Shown here piece by piece: positions 7,788-31,528 of a stretch of 32,982 bases of DNA (within the stretch, counting starts at the first letter, position 1; each line of letters begins with the position of its first letter). The DNA is taken from NCBI GenBank assembly GCA_938084455.1, contig CALKDX010000078.1, positions 1 to 32,982 on the forward strand, read 5' to 3'. The notes below the pieces were generated by a model. It was not told the DNA's origin. It ran no database searches and was given only the letters and a program-made list of their open reading frames with translations. The position numbers were made by a program, and so were the translations under genes. The stretch is from Candidatus Poseidoniaceae archaeon (GTDB lineage Archaea > Thermoplasmatota > Poseidoniia > Poseidoniales > Poseidoniaceae).

Positions 7788-8756
7788 ATGACCATGCGAG
7801 CATTGGTCACCGGTGGTGCAGGTTTCATCGGGTCACATCTCATTGACCGTCTTGTCGCCCGTGGCGACCACGTGGTTGTGCTTGACAACCTTTCATCAGG
7901 TCACCTTTCGTTTATTCAAGAGCATCTCGACAACGGCAATGCAACGCTTGTCCAAGCCGATATCACTCAATTTGACGAGGTTATGGTTGCCATGAAGGGC
8001 ATTGATTGCGTGTATCATCTCGCTGCTAATCCAGACATCCGCTTGGGCACGCGCATCACGGACACGGATCTCAAGCAGGGCACCCTCGCGACGTACAACA
8101 TTGTTGAAGCCATGCGCCTCAACAACGTCGGGACCATCGCCTTTGCCTCATCCTCTGTGGTGTACGGTGAAGATGCACCCCTTCCTACGCCCGAATCACA
8201 CGGGCCTTGTATGCCCATTTCGCTCTACGGTGCGAGCAAGCAAGCCGGTGAGGGTTTGATCAGCAGTTGGGTCGGAACCTTCGGCATTAAAGCTTACATC
8301 TTTCGTTTTGCCAACATCATCGGGACGCGTGGCACCCACGGGGTCATCTTTGATTTCATTCACAAACTCAAGAAAGATCCATCCCGTCTAGAGGTGCTTG
8401 GCAATGGATTACAAGAAAAATCCTACATGGAAGTCGGTGACTGTGCCGACGCCATTTTGCATGTGATGTCCTGTTCGAACGATTCACTCAACCTCTACAA
8501 CCTTGGTAGCCACGACACCGCTTCAGTGCGTCGGATTGCAGAAATCGTAGTCGAGACAACAGGCTGCCATGACGCAAACATCGAGTACACTGGCGGAGAC
8601 CGAGGTTGGGCTGGCGATATTCCACGAGCCATGCTTGGCATAGAGAAGATGCTTTCAACAGGATTTGATGTGCGCTACAACAGCGAAGAGGCCATTCGGC
8701 ACACCGCACTTGCTCTGATTGAAGAAATCGGTTTGAACACGGAGATGAACTCATGA
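7788..8756 (+). CDS. NAD-dependent nucleotide-sugar epimerase/dehydratase (GalE-like SDR)
   Basis: This 322-residue extended short-chain dehydrogenase starts with the Rossmann motif VTGGAGFIGSH (7-17). It has the NAD-ribose acidic residue in VLDNLSSGH (31-39), the HLAANPDIR segment (78-85), SSSVVYG (121-127) and the catalytic YGASK (Tyr147, Lys151). Length and motifs match UDP-glucose 4-epimerase and related nucleotide-sugar epimerases; the exact sugar is not determinable. ATG 7788 is two codons before MRALVTGG; upstream in-frame starts would add an unlikely polar extension. Its TGA stop overlaps the ATG of the thioredoxin-fold gene (ATGA, 8753-8756), implying translational coupling with the redox genes downstream. 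It could supply sugars for surface glycans alongside the glycosyltransferase at 6298-7233. Confidence 0.92.
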   Translation: MTMRALVTGGAGFIGSHLIDRLVARGDHVVVLDNLSSGHLSFIQEHLDNGNATLVQADITQFDEVMVAMKGIDCVYHLAANPDIRLGTRITDTDLKQGTLATYNIVEAMRLNNVGTIAFASSSVVYGEDAPLPTPESHGPCMPISLYGASKQAGEGLISSWVGTFGIKAYIFRFANIIGTRGTHGVIFDFIHKLKKDPSRLEVLGNGLQEKSYMEVGDCADAILHVMSCSNDSLNLYNLGSHDTASVRRIAEIVVETTGCHDANIEYTGGDRGWAGDIPRAMLGIEKMLSTGFDVRYNSEEAIRHTALALIEEIGLNTEMNS

Positions 8757-9466
8757 AACAAATTTACGATGATGAAGCCAGCACCCTCACCGATGCTTTT
8801 TTGAAAATTTCAAGCCTCTTTTTCGTTGGTATTTTGATCATTGCCTTCACGACCAATGGCATCGCGACAGGCACAGAAGAAGGAGAGCGAGCACCAGTCC
8901 TCGAGGGAGCAGCCTACTCTGGCAACGGCTGGGCCTCATTTGACTTCAGTCAAGAATTCGACACCGCTTGGGACGGTAACGTTTCAAGCGATTGGGTCAT
9001 GATTACATTCATGGACACCGATTGTCCTTACTGTGTGCGATCTGCAGATTTGTTCGGAGAAGCATCGGAGATTTTCCATGGCTCCAACCCTGAATGGAAC
9101 GGAGCACAAGTGAATTTCTTCGCAAGCGCGACCCAACTTGACATCAAGGGTCACGATTCCTCACGAGATGAGATTGCCGCATTCAGGGACAAGTCCACTG
9201 GACAAGAATGCGCAGGTGCTGATTGCGCAAACCGTGGCGGCTCCGCACACAACCTCATCACCTACATTGATGACCTCGACCAAGAAAACATGGATGAGTG
9301 GGACATCAGAGGAACACCAACCTACTTCTTGATCCAACCAGATGGCATCATCGCATGGGTTTCAAACGGTGGAACAAACGTCGGTGATGTCAACCAAGAC
9401 GGAGACGAGAACAATTACATCGACGCCATCATCACCCTTGTTACCCGCGAGAACGGTGGTGCTTGA
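8753..9466 (+). CDS. Membrane-anchored extracytoplasmic thioredoxin-fold protein (CPYC)
   Basis: It has 237 residues with an N-terminal membrane helix (about 20-36), so the rest faces outside. The thioredoxin fold follows: the active-site CPYC (Cys91, Cys94) after strand WVMITFMDTD, and the cis-proline loop GTPTYFLIQPDG (187-198). CPYC is the glutaredoxin-like active-site sequence; DsbA-type proteins use CPHC. A second Cys pair (Cys153, Cys158) lies in an insert between the active site and the cis-Pro loop, and the C-terminus has a DxDxD-like loop (VNQDGDENNY). The likely role is disulfide formation or exchange in exported proteins. It overlaps the epimerase upstream by 4 bases, and the VKOR gene follows directly, a natural partner that would reoxidise it. 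Confidence 0.9.
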   Translation: MKQIYDDEASTLTDAFLKISSLFFVGILIIAFTTNGIATGTEEGERAPVLEGAAYSGNGWASFDFSQEFDTAWDGNVSSDWVMITFMDTDCPYCVRSADLFGEASEIFHGSNPEWNGAQVNFFASATQLDIKGHDSSRDEIAAFRDKSTGQECAGADCANRGGSAHNLITYIDDLDQENMDEWDIRGTPTYFLIQPDGIIAWVSNGGTNVGDVNQDGDENNYIDAIITLVTRENGGA

Positions 9467-9467
9467 A

Positions 9468-10055
9468 GTGTCAACCACTCTTTTGCTTGCAGCATACGCT
9501 CTTCCTGTCGTGCTTGGCTTAGCGTTGATCCTTCCTTGGACGGCACCTCTTTTCCTTGGAATGAGCGAAAAACTCCCGTTCTTGAAAACACGCCGCGACA
9601 GGATTTTTGCAGGATTAAACCTTACTTTGCTTGCGGGCTTGGCTATTTCCGTTCAGACACAATGGATTCATGCCAAGGTGAGTGAAGGGGCTAATTTTTG
9701 TGCCTCAAACACCATCTTTTCGTGTGACGATGTGATTGGTAATGCCAACTACAACACCATGCCGGTTCTCGATGTTTCATGGGGAATGGTTGGCATGTGC
9801 ACCTTCGCATTCTTGCTGTTCCTCACCTATGCCTCATCGAAGGAACCGAACGCAACATGGGTCAAAACATGCATCGACCTGGGCACCCTGATGACCTTCG
9901 CTGGTCTTGGCGTCATCGGCTTGCTCGTTTCTTACGAAATTGAAATGGAAAAAATCTGTCAATTCTGCACCATGGCTCACATCGCAAACATCGTGGCATT
10001 AGGTGGATTCATTCAACTGCGCATGATGCATGGCGAAAAGGCGTGGAATGATTGA
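9468..10055 (+). CDS. Vitamin K epoxide reductase (VKOR) family membrane oxidoreductase
   Basis: This polytopic protein of about 195 residues has the complete VKOR cysteine set. A loop pair, Cys78 and Cys86 (FCASNTIFSC), has the same spacing of 8 as in human VKOR, and a membrane-embedded CQFC (Cys164, Cys167) sits in the last helices. Bacterial and archaeal VKOR homologues pass electrons from DsbA/thioredoxin-like proteins to quinone, replacing DsbB; the adjacent CPYC protein fits as the redox partner. GTG 9468 was chosen because GGTGGT lies 8 bases upstream and it clears the previous stop by one base; GTG 9456 and 9459 are alternatives. A small C-terminal charged tail follows the last helix. 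Confidence 0.9.
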   Translation: MSTTLLLAAYALPVVLGLALILPWTAPLFLGMSEKLPFLKTRRDRIFAGLNLTLLAGLAISVQTQWIHAKVSEGANFCASNTIFSCDDVIGNANYNTMPVLDVSWGMVGMCTFAFLLFLTYASSKEPNATWVKTCIDLGTLMTFAGLGVIGLLVSYEIEMEKICQFCTMAHIANIVALGGFIQLRMMHGEKAWND

Positions 10056-11011: not shown

Positions 11012-11956
11012 TTAATCACGCTTTTGCACAATAAGTAAGCCAGTGAATGCCGTGACACCCAGCACCACCCATACAGGATTCCATGCCTCGTCAGAACTTC
11101 GTTCTCGATAGGCAAATTCCAGTGCTCCATAGGTTCCAAGGTCATCTCGTGCTTCGATTGATTGGTAATCGTTTTCGTGAAGAAGCACAACACTGAATGA
11201 ATCCAATGGTCCAAATTCAATGCTAAAATCTGTGGTGCAAGATGTCGGCGCTTCGGAATGAATCAAACCTATGCTCGTCGAAACGAAACCATCGCCAAGC
11301 CTGCATTCAGCCGTAGCGATGACCACTCGGTCCCGCGCAGGCTCGCCGGGGTTATCGAACCCTTTCGGCACCGTTTTCCCGTGTTCGAGCACTAAGAAGG
11401 TCAACTGCGATCCGTTCATGGCATGACCGTCGAAGGTTGTGATTGTAGCGTGAATTGATTCATTAATCCGTTGAACATTGAACTGGAGCTGCGTGAAGGA
11501 TTGCCGAGCGACTTCAAGGTCCAATATGTCTCGTTGAACATCGACCCATGCATCTGTTCCTGTCCTGTACGCTCCACCTTCAACCATGAATGTCGGCGTA
11601 CCAGGCAGGTTCGCATCGACCGCCCTCAACCGCTCAATGCGATGTTGGGCAGCCTCTGGGCCAAACGCATCAACACCGTCATCGGGATGGTAGGCCATCA
11701 GCGCGATGCGTGAGGCATGTGCGTCGGCCACGTTCATCAGGTAAGGATCGATTTCTGCGCATGAAACGCACCACGTTGTGGTTAATTCTTCAACGATTAA
11801 ACTTCGACCTCCAAGGTTCGTTTCAATGCCCTCTTCAAGTGAGGTATTCAAATCCACAACCACAGCCTGTGCGAAGATTGGCGCCTGAAGCAAGCCAACG
11901 GCAAGAAGGAGGACCAACCATCCTCTCTTGTGCGGTCGAGATTGACCCTTCGCCAT
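11012..11956 (-). CDS. Secreted, C-terminally anchored thioredoxin-fold protein (CVSC)
   Basis: It has 314 residues. A signal peptide (basic SRPHKRG, then a Leu-rich helix to about residue 30) is followed by a thioredoxin fold: TTTWCVSCAEIDPYL with Cys63 and Cys66, and the cis-Pro loop GTPTFMVEG. A beta-rich domain follows with two more cysteines (AECRLGDG and TSCTTDFS) that could form a structural disulfide. A single C-terminal helix (VWVVLGVTAFTGLLIV) and the tail QKRD anchor it. It is likely a thiol-disulfide oxidoreductase of the cell exterior, complementing the 8753-9466 protein. ATG 11956 was chosen because it gives a clean signal peptide; the longer ATG 12100 would overlap the divergent methyltransferase gene. 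Confidence 0.85.
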   Translation of the reverse strand: MAKGQSRPHKRGWLVLLLAVGLLQAPIFAQAVVVDLNTSLEEGIETNLGGRSLIVEELTTTWCVSCAEIDPYLMNVADAHASRIALMAYHPDDGVDAFGPEAAQHRIERLRAVDANLPGTPTFMVEGGAYRTGTDAWVDVQRDILDLEVARQSFTQLQFNVQRINESIHATITTFDGHAMNGSQLTFLVLEHGKTVPKGFDNPGEPARDRVVIATAECRLGDGFVSTSIGLIHSEAPTSCTTDFSIEFGPLDSFSVVLLHENDYQSIEARDDLGTYGALEFAYRERSSDEAWNPVWVVLGVTAFTGLLIVQKRD

Positions 11957-12060
11957 GCTTCGGCGACGAGGGCGACCTCCTTCATCCCTTTGTTCTGGGG
12001 GGTTTTGAGGCGAGGTTTCTTCAACAGGTCGAATTCCACTCGTGATGAGGAGGGAGTCAA

Positions 12061-12798
12061 GTGGCCGACCATTGGATTGAGAATCACAAGCGTGATTCAT
12101 GGCGTCGACAAGCCAAGGCCAGCGGGTATCGCGCTCGCTCTGCTTTCAAACTGAAGCAAATCCAAGAGCGATTCAACCTCATCCGTGAGGGTGATGTCAT
12201 CCTCGATGTTGGCTGCCACCCCGGTGGATGGGCGCAGGTTGGAATGGAACTCGTCGGCGAATCTGGATTCGTGCTCGGTGTCGACCTCGAACCTTGCCAG
12301 CCGGTTGAAGGAGCCCTCCTCCTTACAGGGGACATCACCGATCCACACACCCAAGAACGCATGCTCGCAGAACTCAAGGGGCGGCCATTGAATTCCATCG
12401 TTTCAGACATTTCGCCAAACATCACAGGGAAGTGGGATATGGATCAGGCCGTGGCGATGACCCTCGTTGCTCAAGTGTTTGATTTCTCATTGCCTTTGTT
12501 GTGTAAGGGCGGTTCGTTTGTCACCAAATTATTCCAAGGGGTTGGGGTGGAGGAATTAATCGTTGCAATAAAACCATATTTTTCGGATGTGCGTCGCTTT
12601 GCACCTCACGCAACCCGAAACTCTTCTTCTGAAGTCTACCTCATTTGTCGTAATTTCATGCCTTGGAAAGCCAAGAATTTCTCCATTCTTGACAGTTATG
12701 AGGCTGCATTGAATCTTAAGTTGGGCGGCGATGATGTGGATGAAGGACCTGAAATCATCAAATCCTCTTTCTCAGTTCGTCGGAAAAAAGCGGAATAG
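12061..12798 (+). CDS. rlmE: 23S rRNA 2'-O-methyltransferase, RlmE/FtsJ family
   Basis: This 245-residue SAM-dependent methyltransferase begins with the RlmE signature SWRRQAKASGYRARSAFKL. It contains the SAM motif LDVGCHPGGWAQ (48-59) and the acidic GVDLEP (73-78). The catalytic tetrad is complete: Lys30, Asp116 in SDISPN, Lys156 in FVTKLFQG and Glu191 in NSSSEVYLI. The family methylates the ribose of a uridine in the 23S rRNA peptidyl-transferase centre (U2552 in E. coli). The start is GTG 12061, with GGAGG about 10 bases upstream. It heads a plus-strand run of RNA- and translation-related genes. The C-terminal tail of about 45 residues is charged and lysine-rich. Confidence 0.95.
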   Translation: MADHWIENHKRDSWRRQAKASGYRARSAFKLKQIQERFNLIREGDVILDVGCHPGGWAQVGMELVGESGFVLGVDLEPCQPVEGALLLTGDITDPHTQERMLAELKGRPLNSIVSDISPNITGKWDMDQAVAMTLVAQVFDFSLPLLCKGGSFVTKLFQGVGVEELIVAIKPYFSDVRRFAPHATRNSSSEVYLICRNFMPWKAKNFSILDSYEAALNLKLGGDDVDEGPEIIKSSFSVRRKKAE

Positions 12799-15661: not shown

Positions 15662-15722
15662 AGGTTGAGCCAAGGCCAAGGCACCCCCTTCCTTTTTCTA
15701 GTGCTTTGCGTTGGCAATCCGC

Positions 15723-18314
15723 ATGGATACTTCCGCACTTGAGGCGAAGATGGCCAATGGTGCTGGACTGTTCCAGCGCTCGGCCCTCCTCATCCTTATT
15801 GTGACAGGTATGATCACGGTTGGTCTCATGGCTCATTTGACCGTCTCCCCTCCGGATTTCAACACCGACCTTGGAGATTTTGCACCGGATTCTGAAGCGA
15901 ATAAAGCCCACGATCGAATCCACCAACACTTCCCCAATGAAACACGTCCATTGTTCATCGAAGTGCGTGCTGATGATGGCAGAAACATTCTTTCTATAGA
16001 AAATATGCAAACCATGGATGAACACCTTTCAATCATCGAGAATGCTTCAGCAAAGCGCGGTGAAATGATCACGGTGTGGACCACAGCACCAGGCATCCTA
16101 CAACTCGCATTGAATGAGGAAGGCGAAGGCGAGGCTCTCGCAAACATCTCGTCATGGGCACAAATTCTTGACTTGATTTTCGAGGAGGACACCACGTGCT
16201 CAATGACCAGCGACGATCAATTGCTTTCGGCGGCAACCTATGCATCATCGGCCTTGCTCAACAAAGACTTGAGCCTTGATGACACATGTTCCTATCTTGA
16301 ATCGGGCAATGGCACTGCAGCCCCATTTGCTTCGACCACCTTGTGGGTCCTTGAGGTGGACCCTGATTTGGATGAAGAGAATCGAAAGGTCCTCCAAGAC
16401 CAGCTGCGCGATGAATTTGCAACCCTTTCTTCGGAATCCTCGCTTTCTTACGGAGTCGTTTCACTCGACCTCATCTCCTATGACATCGACGAAGGAACCT
16501 TCCAAAACTTGGCGCTTCTCATCATCATTGCTTTGTTCGTAGTGGTTGTGCTTCTTGCCCTTGCCTTCCGCTCGGTACCCGATGTCTTGTTCCCACTCAT
16601 CGGGCTGTCTTCTGCTTTGATTTGGACCTACGGGGTAATGAACCTTCTCGGCGCTAAATTTACCGCCCTCGAAGTGGCAGTGGCTCCGCTCGTTCTTGGA
16701 TTAGGAATCGACTATGCCATTCACCTGCAACGCGCCTATGCTGCCATACGAAAGGAACATCAAGACCCGGCAGAGGCATGGCTGCGTTCGTGTGCCCGCC
16801 TCTCGGTTCCATTGCTGCTTGCGGTTGTCACAACCGTTGCGGCTTTCCTTGCTAACATCATCTCTCCGCTGCCGCCCTTGGCGACCTTTGGATATGCCTT
16901 GGCCTTTGGTGTGGTCTGTGCCTTTGTTTCAGCCACTGTGGTTGTTGGTTCCCTTCACGTCGTCGTTCGCTCTTTTGCAGTCAAGGAAGGATTTCAAGCC
17001 ATCACAATGCCAAAACTTGTCGATCGCATCGTGGCTCTCCAACAAAAGCAACAGGTTGGTGTCCTCTTGGTCACCATCCTAATTTCTGGAGCATCGGTCT
17101 TTGGTGCAGCTTCGCTTGAAACTGATTTTGATCTGGGTGACTTTGTTGACCCTGGGATGGAAATCATGGACGTTCGAGAGGATTTGGACACCAATTACGA
17201 CAGTGCGGGCTGGAAACTGCTCTACATTCTACTCGAACCCGTTGAAGGGGAAAGCACCATCCCTGGTGATTCGCTATTACTTGAGCAAATTCAAGGCCTC
17301 CACACCGATTTAACATCAAATCACGATGTGGTTGGAACCGATGAACGAATTCCCTCACCCGCCTACGAAGGACCCTACGTAGTTCTGCGAGACGCCATCC
17401 TGCGCAACAGCAGTTTCGGAGAAGCCCACAATCTGGAAGTCTTCGACGGTGATGTTTATGTCAAGAATTCAACCCTTGGATGCAACTTGGCTGCGGTGTT
17501 CTTGCAACTGTCCACGAACACTTCGGTTGCCGATGCAATCAGCGGTGAAACATGGTCGGAACGCGTGGCCCAAACTGTGGCCATGGATTCCAATGGCATT
17601 ACCTTCCTAAGAAACGAAGTCCGCGTCGAAGCCTCAACGTCCACTCAGGCAGAGCGCGTCATCGCCCAGATTCAAACTGAACTTGGCTCAACAGATGACC
17701 GAGGCACAATGCGTGAGAACCTTGTCGACCATGCCGAACTTCATGTGACCGGTGACCTGGTCATCTTGCAAACTGTCCTTGACGGTCTAAGCGCCTCCCA
17801 ACTCAAAACCACCCTCATTTCACTGGTCGTCTCAAGCGTTGTGCTGCTGCTGTTGACCCGCCGAATTTTACCAGCCGTCGTCGTGCTGTTCCCCGTGGCC
17901 CTTGCTTCGCTTTGGGTTGCTGGTTCAATGGCAGCGCTCGGACTGAAATGGAACGTGCTGACCGTCATGGTGACGGCACTGACACTGGGCATTGGCATCG
18001 ATTACTCAATTCACATGTGGCGGCGCTTCGAGGTCGAACTCGAACGCAGGGACACCCATTGGGAGGCATTGCGTGCAGCCTTATCAACAACTGGCGTTGC
18101 GCTCATCATGAGCGCACTTACCACCGGATTGGGCTTCCTCGTCCTTCTCTTCTCACCAATGCCCATCATCCAGGATTTTGGATTGATCACGGCGGTGACG
18201 GTGTTCTTCTCCCTCTTGCTGTCACTGATTCTCCTGCCAGTCTTGGTTGAACTCTCAGCTCGAAACAAAGAGCAAGTGCTCGAAGTGAGCGACGGCACCG
18301 TCATCGAAGGTTGA
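15723..18314 (+). CDS. RND/MMPL superfamily membrane transporter (second copy)
   Basis: It has 863 residues with the same duplicated plan as the 3364-6264 protein: helix 1 (about 17-41), a large outside loop, helices 2-6, helix 7, a second outside loop and helices 8-12. The signature motifs are GLGIDYAIHLQRAY and GIGIDYSIHMWRRF. The outside loops contain pairs of cysteines (TCSMTSDD, DTCSYLE) that may be disulfide-bonded. The two transporters are only distantly alike outside the motifs, so they probably handle different cargo. ATG 15723 lacks a good ribosome-binding site and may be leaderless; TTG 15711 is possible. The gene stands alone and meets the convergent DUF2240 gene at TGATCA. Confidence 0.92.
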   Translation: MDTSALEAKMANGAGLFQRSALLILIVTGMITVGLMAHLTVSPPDFNTDLGDFAPDSEANKAHDRIHQHFPNETRPLFIEVRADDGRNILSIENMQTMDEHLSIIENASAKRGEMITVWTTAPGILQLALNEEGEGEALANISSWAQILDLIFEEDTTCSMTSDDQLLSAATYASSALLNKDLSLDDTCSYLESGNGTAAPFASTTLWVLEVDPDLDEENRKVLQDQLRDEFATLSSESSLSYGVVSLDLISYDIDEGTFQNLALLIIIALFVVVVLLALAFRSVPDVLFPLIGLSSALIWTYGVMNLLGAKFTALEVAVAPLVLGLGIDYAIHLQRAYAAIRKEHQDPAEAWLRSCARLSVPLLLAVVTTVAAFLANIISPLPPLATFGYALAFGVVCAFVSATVVVGSLHVVVRSFAVKEGFQAITMPKLVDRIVALQQKQQVGVLLVTILISGASVFGAASLETDFDLGDFVDPGMEIMDVREDLDTNYDSAGWKLLYILLEPVEGESTIPGDSLLLEQIQGLHTDLTSNHDVVGTDERIPSPAYEGPYVVLRDAILRNSSFGEAHNLEVFDGDVYVKNSTLGCNLAAVFLQLSTNTSVADAISGETWSERVAQTVAMDSNGITFLRNEVRVEASTSTQAERVIAQIQTELGSTDDRGTMRENLVDHAELHVTGDLVILQTVLDGLSASQLKTTLISLVVSSVVLLLLTRRILPAVVVLFPVALASLWVAGSMAALGLKWNVLTVMVTALTLGIGIDYSIHMWRRFEVELERRDTHWEALRAALSTTGVALIMSALTTGLGFLVLLFSPMPIIQDFGLITAVTVFFSLLLSLILLPVLVELSARNKEQVLEVSDGTVIEG

Positions 18315-18950: not shown

Positions 18951-21900
18951 TCACTCAATTCGAGTGAATGTTTTGTCCTCATTCATCTGCCAGACACCGC
19001 ATTCCTCGCCTTTGTAGACCGTTTGTTCCATTGCGTAATCATACTCACCGCCAGCCGGTAACTTCGACCATTCACTCACAGTGGTACCAATGGATGCACC
19101 TCCGCTTTCACTGATCGGTTGAATCAGTGCGTCAAGGGCTTTCGAGCCATCGACCTCGGGTTCAGGTTCGGTTTGCGGTTTACGTCCAGGAGGTCCTTTC
19201 AGGCCTGCTGGTTTGGGTTTAGGCGTGCTTGACCGCTGGGGCGGTCCTCTAAGTGGATTTGCCGCCACTGGTACCTGTTTCAGTTCAGGCGCATCGATTT
19301 CGGGGTCCGAATCGACCGAGCCTCGTCGTCGGAGCAACAGCACTAAGCCTGCCAACCCAGCCAGAGAAATTCCACCAGCTGCGGCGATGGTTGCGGAGCC
19401 AAAGCCTGAGGTGCTGGGAGAGAACGATGCGTTCCAAGCGTTGTTGGTTTCGTCCACTTCCCACATCAATTGTTCTGCATCGACTTCGACATGGAGGCTC
19501 CATGCGCCACTTGGGACGGTAATGGTGCTTCTGAGGGTGGTGGCGGTGTTCATGCCAATTTTTGTGACCAGTTCGCGTCCGACAAGGGTTCGCTCCCCGT
19601 CAATCTCAGTGAAGATTGAAACGTTAAACGGATCATCAATGGCTTCACCAAGGCTTGCCAATTGAACGGCGAGTCGCATTGTCTCGCCGGACTCCCGTCC
19701 GCCGCTTATTTTGACATCAGTGATCGCCAAATCTGGGCCATTGCTGCTTAATGGCAATGTCAACCAAGGGTCGAGTTCTGAATTTCCACCGTTTGCTGCA
19801 AGCGTCCAACCTGCATCGTCCATGCCCGAAGCCCAACATACAATGCTGGCCTGTGTTGCAAGCGTTGAAGGATCGCCAAGCGGACTAAAGTCAAACACAA
19901 AGGAAAACATCGTTTTGCCATCATAGACCGTTGTGGAGGCCTTGCTTTGGCTGGAAACTGGCCATGAATCGCTTAAGGAACGAACCTGGCAATGAAGCGT
20001 CAAATTCCCCGACCAGAGATTCGCTTCTTGGATGTTGGCTCCAATTTCAACTTCGCTGAGATGGAATCGTGAAAAACCACTGCTCAGCGTTGAATCGAGC
20101 AGCACTGGTGCCGCTCCATCAATTCTTAACGTTGGCAGATCGATGGTCAACAACTCCCGAGTGGCATAGGGGTCCCAAATGCTGAGTTCAGTTTCAAACA
20201 ACAGTCCAGAACCCAATGGTGCATCAAATTCGATGGAGAGATGGCCGTCAATGGCTTCACCTGAAGTTCCACCGCTCCAACGGTCACTTTGCAATTTGCC
20301 GTTCCAATACACGGACACAGGGCCGGTGTAACTTGTGTTGCTCAGTGCATGGTGGATGGAGGCATTGAGACGGATTTGTTCTCCACTTTGAATGCTCCAA
20401 CCTTCGCTCAAATCGCCTTGAACCTCACCTTGGATGTCCATGAGCGATTCAAGGACAACTTCCATCTCAGCCTCATAGGTCCATTGTTCTTCGAAGGTGA
20501 TGGTTTGAATCCCATCATAGTCTTCGATGACCACATCAATGCGTCCGTCGTTGCTTCCCGGGGTGACAAAGGTCCAATCAACAACCGCCTTGAACTCAAT
20601 CACAAGCGTATCGCCAAGCACGGCGTTGCAGCCTTGTGTGACTTGCATTCGAGCGTCGAGGCCTTCGCATGTTCCGAGGTTTGTGTTGTAGCGTAGACCG
20701 AGCGTCGGATCGTTACCAAGCAGCATGCTCACGCGGGTGATGTCATCGATTTTATTGGCGTCAGACACTTCGAGGCGCCATCCAACTTCCTTGGTTGGTT
20801 CGAGCCTAATCGGATCTCCTGAATTGCCATTGTCCAAAGCTTCGAGGCTCAATAACTGACCTTTTGCTGGGGTGCGGCTTTCCCACCAAAGCGTACCGAC
20901 AGCGGCTGATGATGGACCGATGTCGAAGCCGGCGAGGTCAGTGCCCTTCAACCAAATGCGCACCAATTGATGGTCGTCGTTGGCGCTTTCATTGACCTCA
21001 AGATGAATGGTCCAGTCGTTTCCATCGTTGCTAAAATCAAGTGGATGTGGAACGTATTCGCTTGCTTCAGAAGCGCCGTTTCCGGAGGTGTCATGCAGGG
21101 CTTCAATCCAAATGAACCCTTGAACGGTCGCATTTGAAAACCCACCCACATCATGGTATTGAAGCGAGACTTGGCGGTTGTTCTCTTCGTTGGTGTACGC
21201 TCCATTCATTGGCTCGGTGCTGGTCAGCACTGGCGCCTCGTTGTTGATTTCGACGGTTCTGTTTGAGGCCAACACATTCAATGATAAATCTTCAGAGGTG
21301 CGGGCTTCCAACCAAATTCGAGCATCACCCGAGGTGCCATTTGGCAGCAGGAACTCAATTGACGTTGTCGAACCGAGGTCCAAAGTGGTCCAGACGCCTT
21401 GGTAGCTGTAGAACGCTCCACCCGATGCCTCGGTGCCGGTCACATCGATGTTGATTCGTGCTTCGATCAATCCATTCAACAAACGAGCGCCTGAATTGGT
21501 GAAGGTGTGGTCAACGGTTGCGCTAATCGGGGCATCACCGGGGTAAATTTCTCCCTCGCTGACCGAACTGTCGCCTTGGCTGCTGAAACTCGATGTCATG
21601 TCGAGCACCTCAACCGTGAGTTCGTTGTCGATGGATGTGATGGTTGGTGTTGTGTAACTCGTCGTTGCCGCACCATGGGTCGTCGCGCTCATCTGCAGGT
21701 AAGGAGTGCTCAGTCCGTCATTGACGCCAAACGACCAATCAACAACATCGCCATCAGCGTTGGAGGAATGCGTTGCCTGAATGTCCGTTGAGCGCAAGAT
21801 ACCATCGACATCATCAATGCTCAACGATGAAGCACTCGGATCGTAGGAAAGAACAGCAGGGTCAAGGCCTGTGATGTTGAACCCATCATAGGTCGTCTGC

Positions 21901-23615
21901 CGGATTGTCAGGCTGTATGTGGATTGGGCATCGTACGCAGAATGGAAACTTTGGACAACGCTGACTTGTGCGTTTGGATTAAGCACACTGGGTGGTGCTG
22001 AGAAGAAACCTGCTTCTTCAGATCCCACTTCGACGTGATGGAGTGTGGGGGTGATCCATGCGTTCAATTCAGAGGTTTCAAACTCGATTCTGTATTGAAT
22101 GAGAGAATCGCCCTCCACAGCGTCTGTGATGGTGTGGTTCCCGATGTTGAGCGACTCGGAACTTTGGTTGGCACCTAACGGCCGCCATGGGCTGTTGCTG
22201 ATGTCGCTTTGCGTCGCTCCAGTCTTGTATTGCATTGTGAGTTGCGTGTTGACTGGGGTGATGCCATCCAACTCCATCCAGAGCGGCGTAGCGCTTGCTG
22301 TGGGGTTGGTGCGCAAGTCAAAAATATCCGAGAGCAAGATTCCTGATTGGGAATTGGGGTTCTCGTGTGAACCTGTGGTGTCGGAATAGGTTGTGCCCCA
22401 ATTGCTGAACCGCCAAGCCGATGTGTCGCCACCTGCGTAAACCAATGCACCATCGACATTGAGTATGTCAAAGTCGTAGAGGGCCGTGTGCAATGGGTCA
22501 TGAGCGTGGATTTGACCCGTGAGTGGGTTGTAGCCTCGAACTTGGTCGTACCTCAAATTGTTATTCCGGCCACCGGCAATGACGATCTCATCGTTATGAA
22601 CAACGGCTGCATGCGATGAAATTTTGAAGGGTAAATCGGAACCATTGGTCCATGTGTTGGTGACAGGATCATAAATTTCAGTGTGGTTTGCAGACTGGGT
22701 CGTGGTTTGGTTCAATGCAGCATCAAATAAGGTCACAATTCCACCCAGAGCGTACAACTTTCCATCGAAAGCAACCAACTCAAAGGAATGGCGTGGTGCG
22801 CTCATGTTGGCCATGTAATCCCACACGTCAGTGGCGGGATTGTACCTCATGGTGCGGTTGGTTAAATCAGATCGGTCCTTTTTGCCTACACCCCCTGCTA
22901 CGTAGATGAAGCCGTCGAGGGTGTCCATGCCAGCCAGGCCAACACCCGTCGTAGCAGGCATCGAAGTGCCGTCCGTCCAATTGTTGGTTGCAGGGTCAAA
23001 GATGTGGACCATTCCATCGCCCATGATGGCAGGTGTTGCATAGGGGTGGTAATCGCCTATGGCGTAGATTTTTCCTTGGACAGTGACGCATTCGTGGTAG
23101 GCTTGAGGCTGTGGTAATGTGTCTGGGTTGGGCGACCATGTTTGGTTCGCAATGTCAAACGTCTCAATGAAATTCGTGATGTCTTCATCACCGTTCTGAC
23201 TTGGATTTGGATCGTAGCGTCCACCGATGAGCCAAGCTTCCTCAGTCACACTGTTGTACTCCAAGCAACCAGCAGTTCGTCTGAACATCATGCCGGGTGC
23301 AGGGGCTGTTTGGAAACTGATGACCGGCCGGTCGAGCATCGGTGTGCCATCGGCGCTGTTGACGGTGATGTTTGAGGGTGTGAATCCATCGCTGGCGTTA
23401 AATCCGGCAACGACTGCAATCACCGAGGCTTGTTCATGTTCCTCCACAAGGGGTTCTGCGGCGTCAAGCACCCCGCTGTACGGCAGAAGCAACATACCCG
23501 CCACCGCCCAAATTACGAAGAGGAAATGACTTGCGCTGAGGTTCGCCATGGTGTGGGACTTTGACGGCGATTCAAGAGGCTTGCGTGCCCTTGTCAAGTC
23601 CATACGCTCCAACAT
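18951..23615 (-). CDS. Giant kelch/CARDB surface protein with membrane anchor and cytoplasmic tail
   Basis: It has 1554 residues. A signal sequence (hydrophobic stretch about 28-45, FLFVIWAVAGMLLLPYSG) leads to a kelch beta-propeller region at about 105-415, with repeats such as GRYDPNPSQNGDED, GKIYAIGDYHP, DGFIYVAGGVG and GKLYALGGIV. Long beta-rich Ig-like modules follow, then a CARDB domain (PDLAITDVKISGGRESG, about 1293-1394), a transmembrane helix (about 1408-1428) with RRR on its inner side, and a 122-residue cytoplasmic tail. The tail is Pro/Lys-rich and ends in a compact WSKLPAGGEYDYAMEQTVYKG segment followed by CGVWQMNEDKTF. It is probably an adhesin or surface receptor. ATG 23615 is the longest start; ATG 23549 (MANLSASHF) gives a cleaner signal peptide. 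Confidence 0.88.
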   Translation of the reverse strand: MLERMDLTRARKPLESPSKSHTMANLSASHFLFVIWAVAGMLLLPYSGVLDAAEPLVEEHEQASVIAVVAGFNASDGFTPSNITVNSADGTPMLDRPVISFQTAPAPGMMFRRTAGCLEYNSVTEEAWLIGGRYDPNPSQNGDEDITNFIETFDIANQTWSPNPDTLPQPQAYHECVTVQGKIYAIGDYHPYATPAIMGDGMVHIFDPATNNWTDGTSMPATTGVGLAGMDTLDGFIYVAGGVGKKDRSDLTNRTMRYNPATDVWDYMANMSAPRHSFELVAFDGKLYALGGIVTLFDAALNQTTTQSANHTEIYDPVTNTWTNGSDLPFKISSHAAVVHNDEIVIAGGRNNNLRYDQVRGYNPLTGQIHAHDPLHTALYDFDILNVDGALVYAGGDTSAWRFSNWGTTYSDTTGSHENPNSQSGILLSDIFDLRTNPTASATPLWMELDGITPVNTQLTMQYKTGATQSDISNSPWRPLGANQSSESLNIGNHTITDAVEGDSLIQYRIEFETSELNAWITPTLHHVEVGSEEAGFFSAPPSVLNPNAQVSVVQSFHSAYDAQSTYSLTIRQTTYDGFNITGLDPAVLSYDPSASSLSIDDVDGILRSTDIQATHSSNADGDVVDWSFGVNDGLSTPYLQMSATTHGAATTSYTTPTITSIDNELTVEVLDMTSSFSSQGDSSVSEGEIYPGDAPISATVDHTFTNSGARLLNGLIEARINIDVTGTEASGGAFYSYQGVWTTLDLGSTTSIEFLLPNGTSGDARIWLEARTSEDLSLNVLASNRTVEINNEAPVLTSTEPMNGAYTNEENNRQVSLQYHDVGGFSNATVQGFIWIEALHDTSGNGASEASEYVPHPLDFSNDGNDWTIHLEVNESANDDHQLVRIWLKGTDLAGFDIGPSSAAVGTLWWESRTPAKGQLLSLEALDNGNSGDPIRLEPTKEVGWRLEVSDANKIDDITRVSMLLGNDPTLGLRYNTNLGTCEGLDARMQVTQGCNAVLGDTLVIEFKAVVDWTFVTPGSNDGRIDVVIEDYDGIQTITFEEQWTYEAEMEVVLESLMDIQGEVQGDLSEGWSIQSGEQIRLNASIHHALSNTSYTGPVSVYWNGKLQSDRWSGGTSGEAIDGHLSIEFDAPLGSGLLFETELSIWDPYATRELLTIDLPTLRIDGAAPVLLDSTLSSGFSRFHLSEVEIGANIQEANLWSGNLTLHCQVRSLSDSWPVSSQSKASTTVYDGKTMFSFVFDFSPLGDPSTLATQASIVCWASGMDDAGWTLAANGGNSELDPWLTLPLSSNGPDLAITDVKISGGRESGETMRLAVQLASLGEAIDDPFNVSIFTEIDGERTLVGRELVTKIGMNTATTLRSTITVPSGAWSLHVEVDAEQLMWEVDETNNAWNASFSPSTSGFGSATIAAAGGISLAGLAGLVLLLRRRGSVDSDPEIDAPELKQVPVAANPLRGPPQRSSTPKPKPAGLKGPPGRKPQTEPEPEVDGSKALDALIQPISESGGASIGTTVSEWSKLPAGGEYDYAMEQTVYKGEECGVWQMNEDKTFTRIE

Positions 23616-25405: not shown

Positions 25406-26827
25406 ATGTTCACCAAAACCCGCTTCGACTCATGGGACCTACCAGCCGGCCTTTTGGACGGATTGGCAGCCCTCGAATGGACCCACGCAACTCAAGTCCA
25501 GAAAGACACCATTCCTCTCGCTCGCCGTGGCCTCGATGTGATTGGCCAAGCCCGAACAGGCTCAGGAAAAACCGCTGCCTTTGGACTACCTATCCTAGAA
25601 CGATGCAGCCCTACAGGCTCTCTTCAAGCGTTGATCTTGACCCCTACGCGTGAACTTGCGAACCAGGTGGCTCAAGAATTTGAATCGCTCCAAGGCGAGA
25701 GTGGCCTTTCCATTCAGACCGTATACGGTGGAACTGATTTGGAAAAGCAAGCCCGAACCCTCGGCGACGGTGTCGACATTATCGTTGGAACACCCGGTCG
25801 AGTGATGGACATGAGCGAACGGGGTCACATTGACCTCACTTCACCTTCCTTGTTCTGCCTCGATGAGGCGGACCGTATGTTGGACATGGGATTCTTCCCG
25901 GACATCATGTGGGTGATTGAGCGCATGACAGGGCGAGAACAAACCCTCCTCTTCTCAGCAACCTTCCCGCAGGAAATTATTGACACTGCAAACGAATTCA
26001 TGAACGAACCCGAGTTCGTCTTGACCAACACTGAGGAATTGGACATACCACCAATCGACATGTACAGCGTTCGAATTGGCCGTGCCAACAAACTCTGGGT
26101 GCTTGGACGACTTCTTGCTGGTATGAACGAAGAAGATCAAACCATCATCTTCTGCAACACCAAGCGCATGGTGGACTTGGCTGTTCAACGCCTCTCCAAG
26201 CATGGCTTCTCAGTTGAAGGCCTGCATGGCGATTTGAGCCAAAACCAAAGAGAAAAGATCCTCGGACGGTTCAAGGCCGAGGAAATCAAAACCATCGTTG
26301 CCACCGACGTCGCAGCCCGTGGAATTGACGTGGATGGAATCACCCTCGTCGTCAACTATGATCTCCCAGTCGACTTGGATTCCTTTGTCCACAGGGTTGG
26401 CCGCACAGGTCGTATCGGTCGCAAGGGTGAGGCTTGGAGTTTGGTCTCACGGGACGACGCTCCACAACTTTCCAAGATCATGGCCACCTACGGATTGGAC
26501 ATCATCGAATCCGAACCTCCGGCTTTGCCAGAAGGCATGGACCGAGACCCGGTCAAGCGACAGGATGATTTCGGCGAAACAGCGGACGTGTTTGGCTTCG
26601 TGACGCTCGAATTGAACATTGAGCCTGCAGCAGCAGGTTCCTCAAGAAAGGTCTCCCAGTGGTTCACCGATGCACTTCGTTGCAATGAGATGGCCATTGG
26701 CGATGTTCATTTCGAAGGCGAATCAACCTTCATCAGCATCCATACCAGCAAGGTTGGATTGGCTATCAAGGCGCTTCAAAAGAAAGAAATGTCTGGCCAA
26801 CAAGTTGTTGCAACCATCGTTGAGTGA
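25406..26827 (+). CDS. DEAD-box ATP-dependent RNA helicase
   Basis: It has 473 residues with all core motifs in order: the Q-motif region FDSWDLPAGLLDGL with ATQVQKDTIP, motif I ARTGSGKT (49-56), Ia PTREL (80-84), GG, Ib TPGRV (129-133), II DEAD (153-156), III SAT (184-186), V ATDVAARGIDV and VI HRVGRTGRIGR. The C-terminal 90 residues (FGFVTLELNIEPAAAGSSRK to the end) look like a DbpA/CsdA-type RNA-binding domain, a more bacterial-like arrangement. Its job is ATP-driven unwinding of RNA duplexes, for example in ribosome assembly or cold adaptation. ATG 25406 is preceded by GGAGATGAT. Its stop is 2 bases from the stop of the convergent archaeosortase gene. Confidence 0.95.
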   Translation: MFTKTRFDSWDLPAGLLDGLAALEWTHATQVQKDTIPLARRGLDVIGQARTGSGKTAAFGLPILERCSPTGSLQALILTPTRELANQVAQEFESLQGESGLSIQTVYGGTDLEKQARTLGDGVDIIVGTPGRVMDMSERGHIDLTSPSLFCLDEADRMLDMGFFPDIMWVIERMTGREQTLLFSATFPQEIIDTANEFMNEPEFVLTNTEELDIPPIDMYSVRIGRANKLWVLGRLLAGMNEEDQTIIFCNTKRMVDLAVQRLSKHGFSVEGLHGDLSQNQREKILGRFKAEEIKTIVATDVAARGIDVDGITLVVNYDLPVDLDSFVHRVGRTGRIGRKGEAWSLVSRDDAPQLSKIMATYGLDIIESEPPALPEGMDRDPVKRQDDFGETADVFGFVTLELNIEPAAAGSSRKVSQWFTDALRCNEMAIGDVHFEGESTFISIHTSKVGLAIKALQKKEMSGQQVVATIVE

Positions 26828-26829: not shown

Positions 26830-27894
26830 TCACTCTTCTTCACTGCTGCGCTTCTTCCAAGATCCCTTTTTCTTAGATGCGTGCCTTGAGGTTGGAACTT
26901 TTGGCTCCAAGGATGCTTCAACGCCAACCGTCGCTTTTCTAGCGGGCCATAATCCGTTTTCATCAGGACGCTGAACTTCGATGGCACCAACTCCAGCACA
27001 CAGGATACCGAGTGCAGATAGGGACCAAGCGTAACCAATCGCATCGTCCCATCGGTTTTGGGCTTGGCCACATTCAGACGAAATGAGATCGAGGCTGTAG
27101 CAAGTGTCCAGCGTTGCCTTTGCATCCATCGCTTCGGTGTTGCTGGTCACGTTGTACGCTGCTGAAGCGATCAACAAAGCAGCCAGCACCATCAATGCGA
27201 TTTGGAGCTGGTTGGGTGCTCTGCGAATGGTCAATCGCCATTCGCCTGGTGTCCCATAGGATGCATCAAGTGTCCGTGCTGGTCCTCCAACCAGCCAAAA
27301 CCAAGCCACCCACATGCCGACAAGGACAACCATGAATCCCCACTTGTACACCATTGTGTGCCATTCCCACATGCCCGTGAGGCAAGCCGCATCGTTGGGT
27401 AGGGCTGCACAATCTTCGAGTGCAATCGGATAAAACACCACCAGGCGCAGCAGGTTGAGCACATACACGATGGCACACATCACGAGGATTGAACGGATCT
27501 TGAGTTTCTGAGGGACACCTTCAGTCATAGCGACCAACGTGGAGAGGAAAATCATCTCATGGACGCCAGCACATTCATCGGAAACATAGAGCGCTATGTG
27601 ATCAAAAGTTCCTGGGAAATCGGGGTGGTTCAATTCAATTCTTGTCATCCAGCCATTGTGCATTCCTAATGTGGAAGCCCCCTCGCCATAGAGAAAATTG
27701 GTGATTGCGTTCCAAAGATAGGCCTCTGAAACTTGAATCGGAGCGAGGGTGTCCGAGGGCATGGTCAAAAACCAATAAAACGCCTCAACGCAAAGCAAAG
27801 CGAGTGGGATGCGTGCATACCTCAATCCGAGTTGTGCCACTTCCGACCATTCCATATCGTCTGGCTTTTGCGACGATGTGGCGGTGGACACCAT
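26830..27894 (-). CDS. Archaeosortase/exosortase family transmembrane protease
   Basis: It has 354 residues and about eight hydrophobic helices. The family's three catalytic positions are visible: Cys108 in the outside-facing SDECAGVHEMIFLSTL, Arg150 in VYVLNLLRLVVFY and His179 in MWEWHTMVYKWGF. These proteins cut C-terminal sorting helices from exported proteins and transfer them to a lipid or other acceptor. The C-terminal part adds two or three helices and a very basic tail (SRHASKKKGSWKKRSSEEE), which is unusual for the family. ATG 27894 was chosen; the upstream extension to 28068 would overlap the divergent TusA-like gene. No neighbour carries an obvious PGF-type sorting motif, so the substrates are probably elsewhere. 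Confidence 0.85.
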   Translation of the reverse strand: MVSTATSSQKPDDMEWSEVAQLGLRYARIPLALLCVEAFYWFLTMPSDTLAPIQVSEAYLWNAITNFLYGEGASTLGMHNGWMTRIELNHPDFPGTFDHIALYVSDECAGVHEMIFLSTLVAMTEGVPQKLKIRSILVMCAIVYVLNLLRLVVFYPIALEDCAALPNDAACLTGMWEWHTMVYKWGFMVVLVGMWVAWFWLVGGPARTLDASYGTPGEWRLTIRRAPNQLQIALMVLAALLIASAAYNVTSNTEAMDAKATLDTCYSLDLISSECGQAQNRWDDAIGYAWSLSALGILCAGVGAIEVQRPDENGLWPARKATVGVEASLEPKVPTSRHASKKKGSWKKRSSEEE

Positions 27895-28019
27895 GAACCG
27901 TGGTGGGTGTTCCTCCTCATCAACTTGCGGGCCAAAGGGCAGCAGGAACAATGCATCAGAAGCAAATTGCCAAATTGGCGAGAGGTGCACTTCATACCAA
28001 TGAACATACAGGGCTATCT

Positions 28020-28286
28020 GTGGTCGAAGTGACGCAGTTGGGCACCGCTTCGTCGGTACAGCCAACACACAGGCTCAATGTCATCGGGTTTTTCTGTCCG
28101 GTTCCCGTTGCGGAAGCAAAGAAAGCACTGTCCACAATGGACCAGGGCGAAGTCCTCGAATTGTGGGCTGATGACCCCGAAACATTGCATGATCTTCCAA
28201 TGCTCATTCAGCGGACACCTCACCATCTCATTTCTATAGAAGAGGGCTCAGGAGAGTATCGTTTCCTTGTAGAGGTGGCGGCATGA
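28020..28286 (+). CDS. TusA/SirA-like sulfur-carrier family protein
   Basis: It has 88 residues. After a short N-terminal extension, HRLNVIGFFCPVPVAEAKKAL carries the CPxP motif (Cys26) that holds the persulfide in TusA proteins. The remaining pattern also fits the beta-alpha-beta-alpha-beta fold: GEVLELWADDPETLHDLPMLIQ, then HHLISIEEGSGEYRFLVEV. Family members pass sulfur to tRNA thiolation, molybdenum cofactor or other pathways. The start codon is GTG 28020 or GTG 28029; neither has a strong ribosome-binding site. Its TGA overlaps the ribA ATG (ATGA, 28283-28286), so the two are translated together; the reason for linking sulfur transfer to riboflavin synthesis is not clear. Confidence 0.85.
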   Translation: MVEVTQLGTASSVQPTHRLNVIGFFCPVPVAEAKKALSTMDQGEVLELWADDPETLHDLPMLIQRTPHHLISIEEGSGEYRFLVEVAA

Positions 28287-28927
28287 CCCCACCAGTTGTG
28301 GAACGAAACTCAGTTCCAAGTGAAGCCAAATTACCTACTGTGAGGGGTGAATTCAACATCCGTATTTTCCACGAAGCTGAGACTGGCCACGACCATGTGG
28401 CGCTCACACTTGGGGGCATGGACGGGCCAGATCCTGTTCTTGTTCGCTTGCACTCCGAATGCCTCACCGGCGATGCATTTGGCAGCACACGTTGTGATTG
28501 TGGCCCTCAACTCCAAGCAGCGATGGACGCGGTTGTTGAGCGAGGGTATGGTTGCATTCTCTACCTGCGCCAAGAAGGAAGGGGCATAGGGCTTCATGCC
28601 AAAATCCAAGCTTATCACCTCCAAGACAAAGGTGCAGATACCCTTGATGCCAACCTTATGTTGGGTCTTCCAGGTGATGGCCGTGATTACAAAATCGCAG
28701 CTTCAATGCTCAAAGCATTGAACATTCCAAGCATCGAATTGCTGTCGAACAATCCAGACAAAGCCGAACAACTCCTCGAATACGGCATCGATGTGGCTTC
28801 GCGAACCGCTTTGGTGGTTGGAGTTGGTAAAGAAAACCGTTTGTACCTTGAGACCAAGGTGGAGCGAATGGGTCACACCATCTCAGAAGCAGATCTTTCG
28901 ACAGACAGGCCTGACAAGAATGAGTAA
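28283..28927 (+). CDS. ribA: GTP cyclohydrolase II
   Basis: It has 214 residues, close to monofunctional RibA. Zinc ligands Cys60, Cys71 and Cys73 are in HSECLTGDAFGSTRCDCG. The GTP-binding and catalytic stretch LRQEGRGIGLHAKIQAY (95-111), GDGRDY (131-136) and SNNPDKAEQLLEYGI (155-169) all match the family. The enzyme opens GTP to 2,5-diamino-6-ribosylamino-pyrimidinone phosphate plus formate, the first step of the riboflavin pathway. Many archaea use the unrelated GTP cyclohydrolase III (ArfA) instead, so this bacterial-type enzyme may have been acquired by transfer. It overlaps the TusA-like gene by 4 bases and ends 4 bases before the tRNA-His 3' end. Confidence 0.95.
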   Translation: MTPPVVERNSVPSEAKLPTVRGEFNIRIFHEAETGHDHVALTLGGMDGPDPVLVRLHSECLTGDAFGSTRCDCGPQLQAAMDAVVERGYGCILYLRQEGRGIGLHAKIQAYHLQDKGADTLDANLMLGLPGDGRDYKIAASMLKALNIPSIELLSNNPDKAEQLLEYGIDVASRTALVVGVGKENRLYLETKVERMGHTISEADLSTDRPDKNE

Positions 28928-29041: not shown

Positions 29042-29131
29042 ATGGTGCGTACAGCGCAACAGGTCGCTGATGCCTTGCCATGCGAGCAGAGGACCCTTGC
29101 ATTCAAGTGCATTCGGCCTTGTAGTCCAACC

Positions 29132-31528
29132 ATGCGAACTCTACGTGCGAACAAGTTCATCGCCAGCGGGCTGCTCTTGTTGTTTGTTTTGGCACCGCTA
29201 TCCAGCGTTTCAGCACGTTCAGTGCATGAGACCACTGCCGTTGCTCTGCTCCCTCAAGGTGATTTTGAGGATTCATCAGCATGGCACATGGATGCTTATA
29301 CCTCGTTTTCTCAAGACCAAGCACTCTACACCGATGCTATGGTGGCGGACAGTCGCCTAACCATGGTTCACGATCGACCAGTCAATCTCGACACAATGGT
29401 GTTCTGGGCCCAATCCACCCCGACCAATTCCAACAACTCGCTTTACGCACCCGATGGGGCCTATTCGTGGTCGTCCGGACCTGAGATGGAATTAACAAAT
29501 TTCTATGCTGCAGGCTCGACTCAATATGAGATTGAGCAGGTGAAGTTGGTGTTTGCTTTCGCAGTACCTCACACGCTGTCCCAAGACTCCGTGCGCTTCT
29601 CTGTCGAATACAACGGTAACTTCTCCTCCCTTGCCACCTTTGCCCACACCCAGGCCCCCCTCGATCACATGACCAATTATTGGAAGAAAGACATCAGCAC
29701 GCTCGATGCATGGACCTGGTCATCGTTGCAAGACCTCATTGTCACGGCGAATTACGAATCGGTTGGTTCGACCGATGACTCGCAACTGAACTTGGATGCA
29801 GTTGGAGTGGAAGTCACCATGCAAACGCCATGGTACGGTGGCGAAGTGGCCGAAGCTTCCACCAGCTTTAGCGCACATGAAACTCCAGTCATTGTCCTTG
29901 ATTTGACGGCTGGAGAATCCGAGAACATGGGCTATGCTGCCTGTGGACTGCAGAGCAGCGTCGAGGGCACCACGGGCCAATGGACAAGCAACGTCATTGA
30001 AACACCGCCAAACCAACGCATCGGGCGCGTTCATTTTACACTCCAAAACGAATCCCTTGATGATGTGGTGTTGCATTACGCCTCCTCCGCAGATGGAACC
30101 TCCTTCACCGCTTTTGAGGCAATGGATGAGCACATGCTGCTGCCAAACCAGCCTTACAGCAAAGTGCGGGTCACAACCACTGAGGCATGCATCAGTGAGA
30201 TCACCGTTGATGTGAACGACCCAACATTGACACTGAACGGGCGAATCTTTGGCGATTTGGACGGGCTGGATTCAAGTTATTCCCGTTGGTTGTTGTTTGT
30301 CAACGATGAACTTGTCACAAATCAACCGGTTGAACTCTCTCCCTCACTCTCGTTTTCTTTCCCAGTCGGTGCGCACATTCACAACCCTACTGCCCCACTT
30401 CATGTGGAACTGAAAACATGGTTTACATGGGATTCACAGGGTGGAGCAAGCACAACAGCGTTCGAAGTGACCTCGATGTCCATCAGTGGTGGCTACAACA
30501 TCACTTGGGATGAAAACCCGACCTGTGTTGCCGTTGGCGATCAAACCATGATTGAAGACGGCGGAGGTCGAATTCTACCCTTCCTCCATCGATGCGAAGA
30601 CGACCGAACCGTCAATGAAAACCTCGTAGTTTCCTTCACCAACACAAACCCGAACCTTGTCCTCGTCGATCTTTCTCAAGGCGATGTTCGCGTCCGCTTA
30701 ATGCCAGAGGTGTCAGGCTTTGCCACCGTGACGACAACCGTCCTCGACGAAGCAGGAAATGCTTGGTCTGAGGTGTTCATGATCACCGTAAGTTCGGTTG
30801 ATGACGCTCCGACCCTGACCGAATTCCAGTCGATCATTCCTGTTCAATTGTCGGTGCCAACAACGCTTGACTTTACCTACAGTGACATCGATTCGAACGA
30901 GTTGACCTCAAGCACCAATCGAAGTTGGGCCTCCGTCGACATGGCGGCCAGAACCATTACTGTGAACGCACCATCGCCTGGATTCCACTCTGTGCTCGTT
31001 TCGATTTGTGACCAAACAACCTGCACTGAACGCGTGATGGATTTGGAAGTGATGGCCCTCCCAGACCTCGTCATTGAAACGATTGATGCAGGTGATGATA
31101 CCATTCTTGCAGGCGATGTCGCCGAAATACGTGTCTTCGTCCGCAACAACGGACAAGCCGATGCATCAATGATCTCCGTTCGCTGCGAAATGAACTCAGA
31201 ACTGATTTCGATCGGTACCTTACCAATTCTACGACCAGGCGAACTTGGCTCTGTGACATGCGACTGGGGCGTGCCCGAACAAACGGGTGTGGTGCAGATC
31301 CGTGCGATTGTGGACCGTGGCTTAGAAATTGACGAAGGCGATGAAACCAACAATGAGGCGGCGATTGCAGTTGAGATTGAAGCCAGTGCATCCACGAACG
31401 GTGACTCTTCCTCGTCGTCAATCAACATCAGCGATGGTGCCTTCTACGGCTTGACCGTGTTTGGACTTCTGGCCATTGTTGGCGCATTTGCTTTCTTGTC
31501 CCCTGCCAAGATTAAGAAACTCGAATGA
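29132..31528 (+). CDS. Secreted surface protein with CARDB domain and C-terminal anchor
   Basis: It has 798 residues. A signal peptide (RTLRANKF, then a Leu-rich helix, cleavage probably near SVSA) leads to a beta-rich ectodomain. The mid-protein part (DDRTVNENLVVSFTNTNPNLVLVD, later SSVDDAPTLTEFQ) resembles cadherin-like/Ig-like tandem modules. A CARDB domain follows (LPDLVIETIDAGDDTILAG to GDETNNEAAIAVEIEA). After a Ser-rich spacer, a single helix (FYGLTVFGLLAIVGAFAFL) and the short basic end SPAKIKKLE complete it. Function as an adhesin or surface-layer component is inferred. ATG 29132 is preferred over the longer ATG 29042 because it puts the signal peptide at the N-terminus; no ribosome-binding site is visible. 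The stop codon lies inside the inverted repeat that follows. Confidence 0.85.
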   Translation: MRTLRANKFIASGLLLLFVLAPLSSVSARSVHETTAVALLPQGDFEDSSAWHMDAYTSFSQDQALYTDAMVADSRLTMVHDRPVNLDTMVFWAQSTPTNSNNSLYAPDGAYSWSSGPEMELTNFYAAGSTQYEIEQVKLVFAFAVPHTLSQDSVRFSVEYNGNFSSLATFAHTQAPLDHMTNYWKKDISTLDAWTWSSLQDLIVTANYESVGSTDDSQLNLDAVGVEVTMQTPWYGGEVAEASTSFSAHETPVIVLDLTAGESENMGYAACGLQSSVEGTTGQWTSNVIETPPNQRIGRVHFTLQNESLDDVVLHYASSADGTSFTAFEAMDEHMLLPNQPYSKVRVTTTEACISEITVDVNDPTLTLNGRIFGDLDGLDSSYSRWLLFVNDELVTNQPVELSPSLSFSFPVGAHIHNPTAPLHVELKTWFTWDSQGGASTTAFEVTSMSISGGYNITWDENPTCVAVGDQTMIEDGGGRILPFLHRCEDDRTVNENLVVSFTNTNPNLVLVDLSQGDVRVRLMPEVSGFATVTTTVLDEAGNAWSEVFMITVSSVDDAPTLTEFQSIIPVQLSVPTTLDFTYSDIDSNELTSSTNRSWASVDMAARTITVNAPSPGFHSVLVSICDQTTCTERVMDLEVMALPDLVIETIDAGDDTILAGDVAEIRVFVRNNGQADASMISVRCEMNSELISIGTLPILRPGELGSVTCDWGVPEQTGVVQIRAIVDRGLEIDEGDETNNEAAIAVEIEASASTNGDSSSSSINISDGAFYGLTVFGLLAIVGAFAFLSPAKIKKLE

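Follow-up and report, generated by a model that had tools for sequence, protein, structure and literature searches.

The window analysed here, that is, the whole stretch of 32,982 nucleotides, belongs to a fragmented genome assembly (G000) of the order Poseidoniales (Marine Group II), whose members are abundant uncultured archaea of the ocean. The assembly has 131 contigs with a total of 1.93 Mb and a completeness of 85%. On its minus strand, at 26830..27894, it carries the second archaeosortase-family gene of this genome, for which the working name art2 is used. The open reading frame had been predicted at exactly this place, and it encodes 354 amino acids when read from the ATG at 27894. The frame is open further upstream, to a GTG at 28068 (the 412-aa reading); the alignment of the relatives begins at about residues 1–13 of the shorter protein, and D13 is invariant. 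A helicase-like gene (25406..26827, plus strand), identified as an ORF, placed by gene order and named from reading its sequence, is convergent to art2, with the two stop codons adjoining. The conserved neighbour on the other side is ribA, a GTP cyclohydrolase II-like gene (28283..28927, plus strand; PF00925, E = 1.8e-60), and a small ORF with a CPxP motif, which we take to resemble TusA/SirA, lies between art2 and ribA at 27900-28286. Next comes a gene for a CARDB surface protein (29042..31528, plus strand; CARDB, E = 1.2e-14), whose product ends in a C-terminal helix followed by SPAKIKKLE and is a candidate substrate at most.

The order helicase, art2, ribA was found in 17 of the 20 art2-containing loci read; of the remaining three, two are truncated where the contig ends, and L189 is rearranged. 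The helicase gene and ribA stand together without art2 in 12 of the 18 art2-minus loci read, and the other six are loci with contig ends or with a helicase that was not recognised. Elsewhere, the window encodes two RND transporters of the HAE3/MMPL type (3364-6264 and 15711-18311), both scoring under the subfamily cut-offs, and a large kelch surface protein (18951-23615), whose gene lies beside a HEAT-repeat gene in several loci of the window's own family, f1, and was not recognised in the loci of the second family, f2, that were examined.

The product of art2 is a genuine member of the exosortase/archaeosortase family: hmmscan with TIGR04178 gave 31.6 bits against a cut-off of 23, with the match covering a conserved catalytic core at residues about 103–202 (27289..27588, minus strand; positions 161–260 of the 412-aa reading). 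The catalytic Cys, Arg and His that had been read from the sequence are present in this order as C108, R150 and H179, and all three are invariant in 48/48 rows of the homologue alignment, in which two genes were entered twice. The cysteine lies in the motif DECAGVHE, of which C108, G110, H112 and E113 are invariant in 22/22 aligned rows. Five hydrophobic stretches show up in the 412-aa reading in a simple scan, and long helices are seen in the AlphaFold2 model, which suggests a multi-pass membrane protein with the topology deduced from these stretches. At the same time, none of the named subfamily models in the NCBIfam profile scan gave a score over its cut-off. The model of archaeosortase A (TIGR04125) reached 17.6 bits against 75, and those of archaeosortases B, C, D and H and of pacearchaeosortase reached 13.5–15.5 bits against 80–200.

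The TIGR04178 match stops near residue 202, so that the protein continues about 150 residues past the family core, as originally predicted. The additional helices anticipated there are found as three in the AlphaFold2 model (229–251, 253–268 and 273–304), and together they form a C-terminal extension at residues about 229–305 (26980..27210, minus strand), which is taken as a membrane hairpin with the cysteines C265 and C275. The model as a whole was of moderate quality (pLDDT 74.9, pTM 0.57), with block pLDDT values of about 79–93 over residues 231–300 and a small strand region ahead of Cys108 in the core. The underlying alignment consisted of 40 sequences, namely that of art2 and 39 relatives out of the 80 that had been kept from 157. 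A sequence search for relatives of solved structure matched only designed proteins, Foldseek gave no match with E under 0.001, and VIA-align gave Z values of 8.5 or less, almost all on residues about 215–326; none of these searches pointed to a family of known fold.

The hairpin extension is kept in most Poseidoniales homologues of art2 and is missing in a few. Short forms without it were found in three genomes of genus g9 (frames of 229–248 aa) and in one genome of genus g15 (G219, 234 aa); in the short forms L100:9163-9834 (223 aa) and G219:C43:24241-24816, the catalytic core region is kept. Within the extension, 98% of the 48 rows have C265 and 94% have C275, and we infer that the two form a disulfide. 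The window also encodes, at 8753-10055, a VKOR-like protein and an exported protein of thioredoxin fold, perhaps a disulfide-forming pair, both with weak NCBIfam matches (for the VKOR-like protein, E = 9.8e-6 and 26.0 bits, well under the cut-off of 120). The presence of both genes in the window makes extracellular disulfide formation plausible.

The protein ends in a disordered tail (residues 320–354; 26833..26937, minus strand; pLDDT under 50), which is Lys-rich, contains GSWK and closes with EEE. The Lys-rich end of the original prediction does not characterise the enzyme family as a whole: reading of 129 loci, in four of which no art2 gene was called, gave at least five Lys in the last 40 residues in 64/97 distinct art2 genes and in 0/8 of those from f2, and by these counts the Lys-rich tail appears only in f1. 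The final two residues are EE in 93/97 distinct art2 genes against 22/547 sampled proteins of G002, a complete genome of the same genus as the source genome. Close relatives have a GSW(K/R) motif ahead of the terminal EE. On the DNA level, runs of at least five A occur in 59% of the 97 art2 tails versus 9% of 844 equally long windows taken from the other parts of the genes, with a mean longest run of 4.7 versus 3.2. Such runs may reflect either the Lys codons or, on the antisense strand, a T-tract that ends transcription of the convergent helicase gene, and cause and effect are inseparable here because Lys codons alone make A-runs.

Among the 243 genomes of the order, art2 was found in 142; by a hand count of the table, these are 111/121 genomes of f1 and 31/122 of f2, and within f2 the gene is confined to the genera g15, g17, g19 and g22. 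Across the phylum, the art2 profile matched 75/340 genomes in all, eight of them outside the order (E from 3.9e-11 to 7.9e-24). These archaeosortase-like proteins share the core with art2, but the matching region breaks off at about position 220 of 317, short of the extension, and the hairpin therefore looks Poseidoniales-specific. In the tree of the neighbouring surface protein (29042-31528), all 23 art2-minus rows used form one clade (support 99/98), which, with the root placed at the midpoint, falls within the art2-plus rows and therefore fits one loss; judging from this tree, art2 was probably lost once. The genomes of the art2-minus lineage are mostly smaller. Note that any effect of the absence of art2 on other genes rests on this one loss event.

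The ordinary sorting system of archaea is also present in the source genome. TIGR04178 matches were obtained in 231/243 genomes at E of 0.1 or better, and about 98/121 f1 genomes have at least two of them (hand count). The second copy of the source genome, on contig C66, reached 102.5 bits with TIGR04125 against the cut-off of 75 and is an archaeosortase A (ArtA); this model was applied to the C66 copy, and copies elsewhere are called ArtA on the basis of similar scores. The accompanying C-terminal signal, PGF-CTERM, was found over the cut-off on another contig (C95:12836-12913, 26.9 bits against 24.5), with further matches under the threshold on C3 (22.9 bits) and C8 (21.2 bits). ArtA and the signal composed of PGF, a helix and a basic end are described in Haloferax in the sources cited here (PMC9263693, PMC7157517). 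Typical ends in Poseidoniales are TIPGFGALVAISGLAMAAAFTRRD in the source genome and ELPGFGAFLSLIGLLGAALIGRRQEA in G001, a genome without art2. Of the 14 genomes tested, seven had PGF-CTERM over the cut-off: 4/8 with art2 (G000, G002, G008 and G017) and 3/6 without it (G001, G019 and G036), in a search in which two of 14 control genomes also exceeded the cut-off and 12 of 14 gave matches at E of 10. Since the source genome has both ArtA and PGF-CTERM, the lineage possesses the known signal and the usual enzyme. In the literature searched, mostly without subscription papers, nothing was found on archaeosortases, PGF-CTERM or the surface layers of Poseidoniales.

The original prediction had set the archaeosortase against surface proteins that lack a PGF-like motif, and this puzzle is mostly answered by the second enzyme and by known signals that other parts of the genome encode. 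The absence of the motif holds within the window, where the proteins encoded at 100-2394 and 18951-23615 end in a helix with a tail, the latter a long one, and where another protein that looks exported, the fourth of its kind in the window (11012-12100), has QKRD after its terminal helix; for the genome it does not hold. The suggestion that the targets lie elsewhere was right genome-wide, given the PGF-CTERM protein on C95, but such proteins go with ArtA and show no demonstrable link with art2.

A second signal was sought in parts of three genomes: 819 kb of the 2.06-Mb G002 (about 40%), 249 kb of G001, and, for G017, about 351 kb together with a single 19-kb locus. The ORF caller was crude (longest ORFs, hydrophobicity windows), so some of the helix-ended proteins counted are not true genes or are not exported. 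Of 650 ORFs of at least 100 aa in 800 kb of G002, 36 have a hydrophobic stretch at the end, followed by no more than 25 residues, and in six of these 36 the end resembles a PGF signal or a variant of it. The corresponding PGF-type ends were 4/14 for G017 (277 ORFs), with one stretch chosen for its PGF match, and one variant among 12 helix-ended ORFs for G001 (210 ORFs). No second recurrent class of short-tail signal besides PGF was recognised in these partial samples, nor was a substrate or an art2-dependent signal found in them, and a rare signal could escape notice at this coverage. Three ends considered as such a class, LPFIHSL, LGFLSP and FLPAPS, have homologues ending in LPGFLAP, LPGFG/VPGFG and LPGWS, that is, in PGF or closely similar ends, and are therefore taken as PGF variants; for the end LLPALSPL (L032), no homologue was found for comparison. 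Another candidate for an art2-linked target, a G002 protein of 409 aa with a helix at its end (L041), was rejected, being present in 214/243 genomes, art2-minus genera included.

These results bear on the possibility that art2 has no signal of its own and works as an auxiliary enzyme on the PGF-CTERM substrates of ArtA, on a subset of them or under certain conditions. The PGF-type ends are the sole recurrent short-tail signals recognised in the art2-containing samples, and the frequent occurrence of two or more TIGR04178 matches in f1 genomes also agrees with such a role. However, PGF-CTERM exceeds the cut-off in half of the tested genomes that lack art2, and art2 is remote from ArtA, both in its TIGR04125 score and in its cysteine motif (DECAGVHE against ACTALQS). 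We regard an auxiliary role as rather unlikely, although it is the strongest competitor of the reading preferred below.

The SPAKIKKLE-type end (31500-31525) of the neighbouring CARDB protein had been put forward as an undescribed sorting signal of this lineage, an idea that did not survive comparison. Of 1092 genes from the G002 and G001 samples and the art2 neighbourhoods, 12 have P-x-x-[IVL]-[KR]-[KR] close to the C-terminus, namely 11 orthologues of the 29042-31528 protein and one gene without a helix; the end thus belongs to one orthologous family and is not shared by unrelated exported proteins in this set. The comparison with genomes lacking the enzyme, proposed together with the original idea, gave the helix in 24/24 art2-minus genomes read, followed by P-x-x-[IVL]-[KR] in 23 and by P-x-x-P-K in one, and PGF-CTERM, too, occurs in such genomes, as given above. 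As the helix and a similar end are kept in all 24 genomes, SPAKIKKLE is not an art2-dependent signal, and annotators should not call it a sorting signal. Coupling of the presence of the protein to art2 is likewise ruled out, with the CARDB protein in 224/243 genomes of the order, including genera without art2, and art2 in 142/243. This protein is a near-universal component of the cell surface with a conserved helix and a P-x-x-I/V/L-K/R end.

It is improbable, therefore, that the CARDB protein is the dedicated substrate of art2 with the helix and the P-x-x-I-K/R-K end as its signal. The position of the gene would suit this role, as it lies next to ribA beside art2 in 10/20 art2-containing loci from both families, and a CARDB protein gene also adjoins ribA in L104, where art2 was not called; three art2-containing loci (L095, L096 and L107), however, have different genes at that place, and no shared motif was seen ahead of the helix. 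A lineage difference within the protein was also noticed: in a count that left out rows whose match stopped short of the final 60 residues and took each distinct end a single time, Trp was present in the helix in 50/85 rows from art2-plus genera versus 0/24 art2-minus rows, and in 0/3 rows of g9, while the end is longer in most art2-minus rows and mostly shorter in the art2-plus ones. But genus g19, with art2 in 4/5 of the genomes used, is already in the art2-minus-like state (Trp in 0/5, long tail), so the change seems older than the loss of art2, and the difference in Trp and tail length is no more than a weak lead.

Least probable of all is the reading of art2 as an enzyme in decay or put to another use, without a sorting function, with which its loss in a whole lineage, the short forms without the extension and the single internal stop in each of three copies (G198, G109 and G209) would agree, but against which stand the triad and surrounding motif, invariant in rows down to 27% identity, and the presence of the gene in 111/121 f1 genomes.

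Among these readings, we favour art2 as a second archaeosortase beside the standard ArtA, dedicated to a few substrates of its own; this is probably its role, ahead of auxiliary action on PGF-CTERM proteins and of the neighbouring protein as substrate. By analogy with ArtA, such an enzyme would recognise a C-terminal (or internal) signal in exported proteins and cut them there, at the outer face of the membrane, where Cys108 would form an acyl-enzyme with the assistance of Arg150 and His179, and the new C-terminus of the substrate would then be handed to a lipid. The dedicated enzyme would serve one or a few substrates, which could explain why no second signal recurs in the samples. The hairpin, probably closed on the outside by the C265–C275 disulfide, may help to dock or select the substrate, and the Lys-rich tail may be a lineage-specific cytoplasmic end. 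A more specific version, to which we give somewhat less than even weight, is that a new subfamily of archaeosortases begins with art2, and that its own, undescribed signal, carried by one protein or a few, is read via the disulfide-closed, Poseidoniales-specific hairpin. ArtA and PGF-CTERM, together with a widespread art2 that was probably lost once, provide a natural contrast of presence and absence for finding the substrates.

Compared with known systems, art2 has in common with ArtA (TIGR04125) the superfamily TIGR04178, the Cys-Arg-His order and the character of a polytopic membrane protein, and its triad aligns with the corresponding three residues in the ArtA of the same genome, in an alignment that is statistically weak (probability 1.2, E = 0.043). 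The two differ in the cysteine motif compared above, in the C-terminal hairpin added in art2 and in the signal, none being linked to art2. Archaeosortases B, C, D and H, pacearchaeosortase, XrtG, XrtM and XrtY of NCBIfam resemble art2 weakly and in the catalytic region only (11–16.4 bits against cut-offs of 80–200), and their matches all end before the extension.
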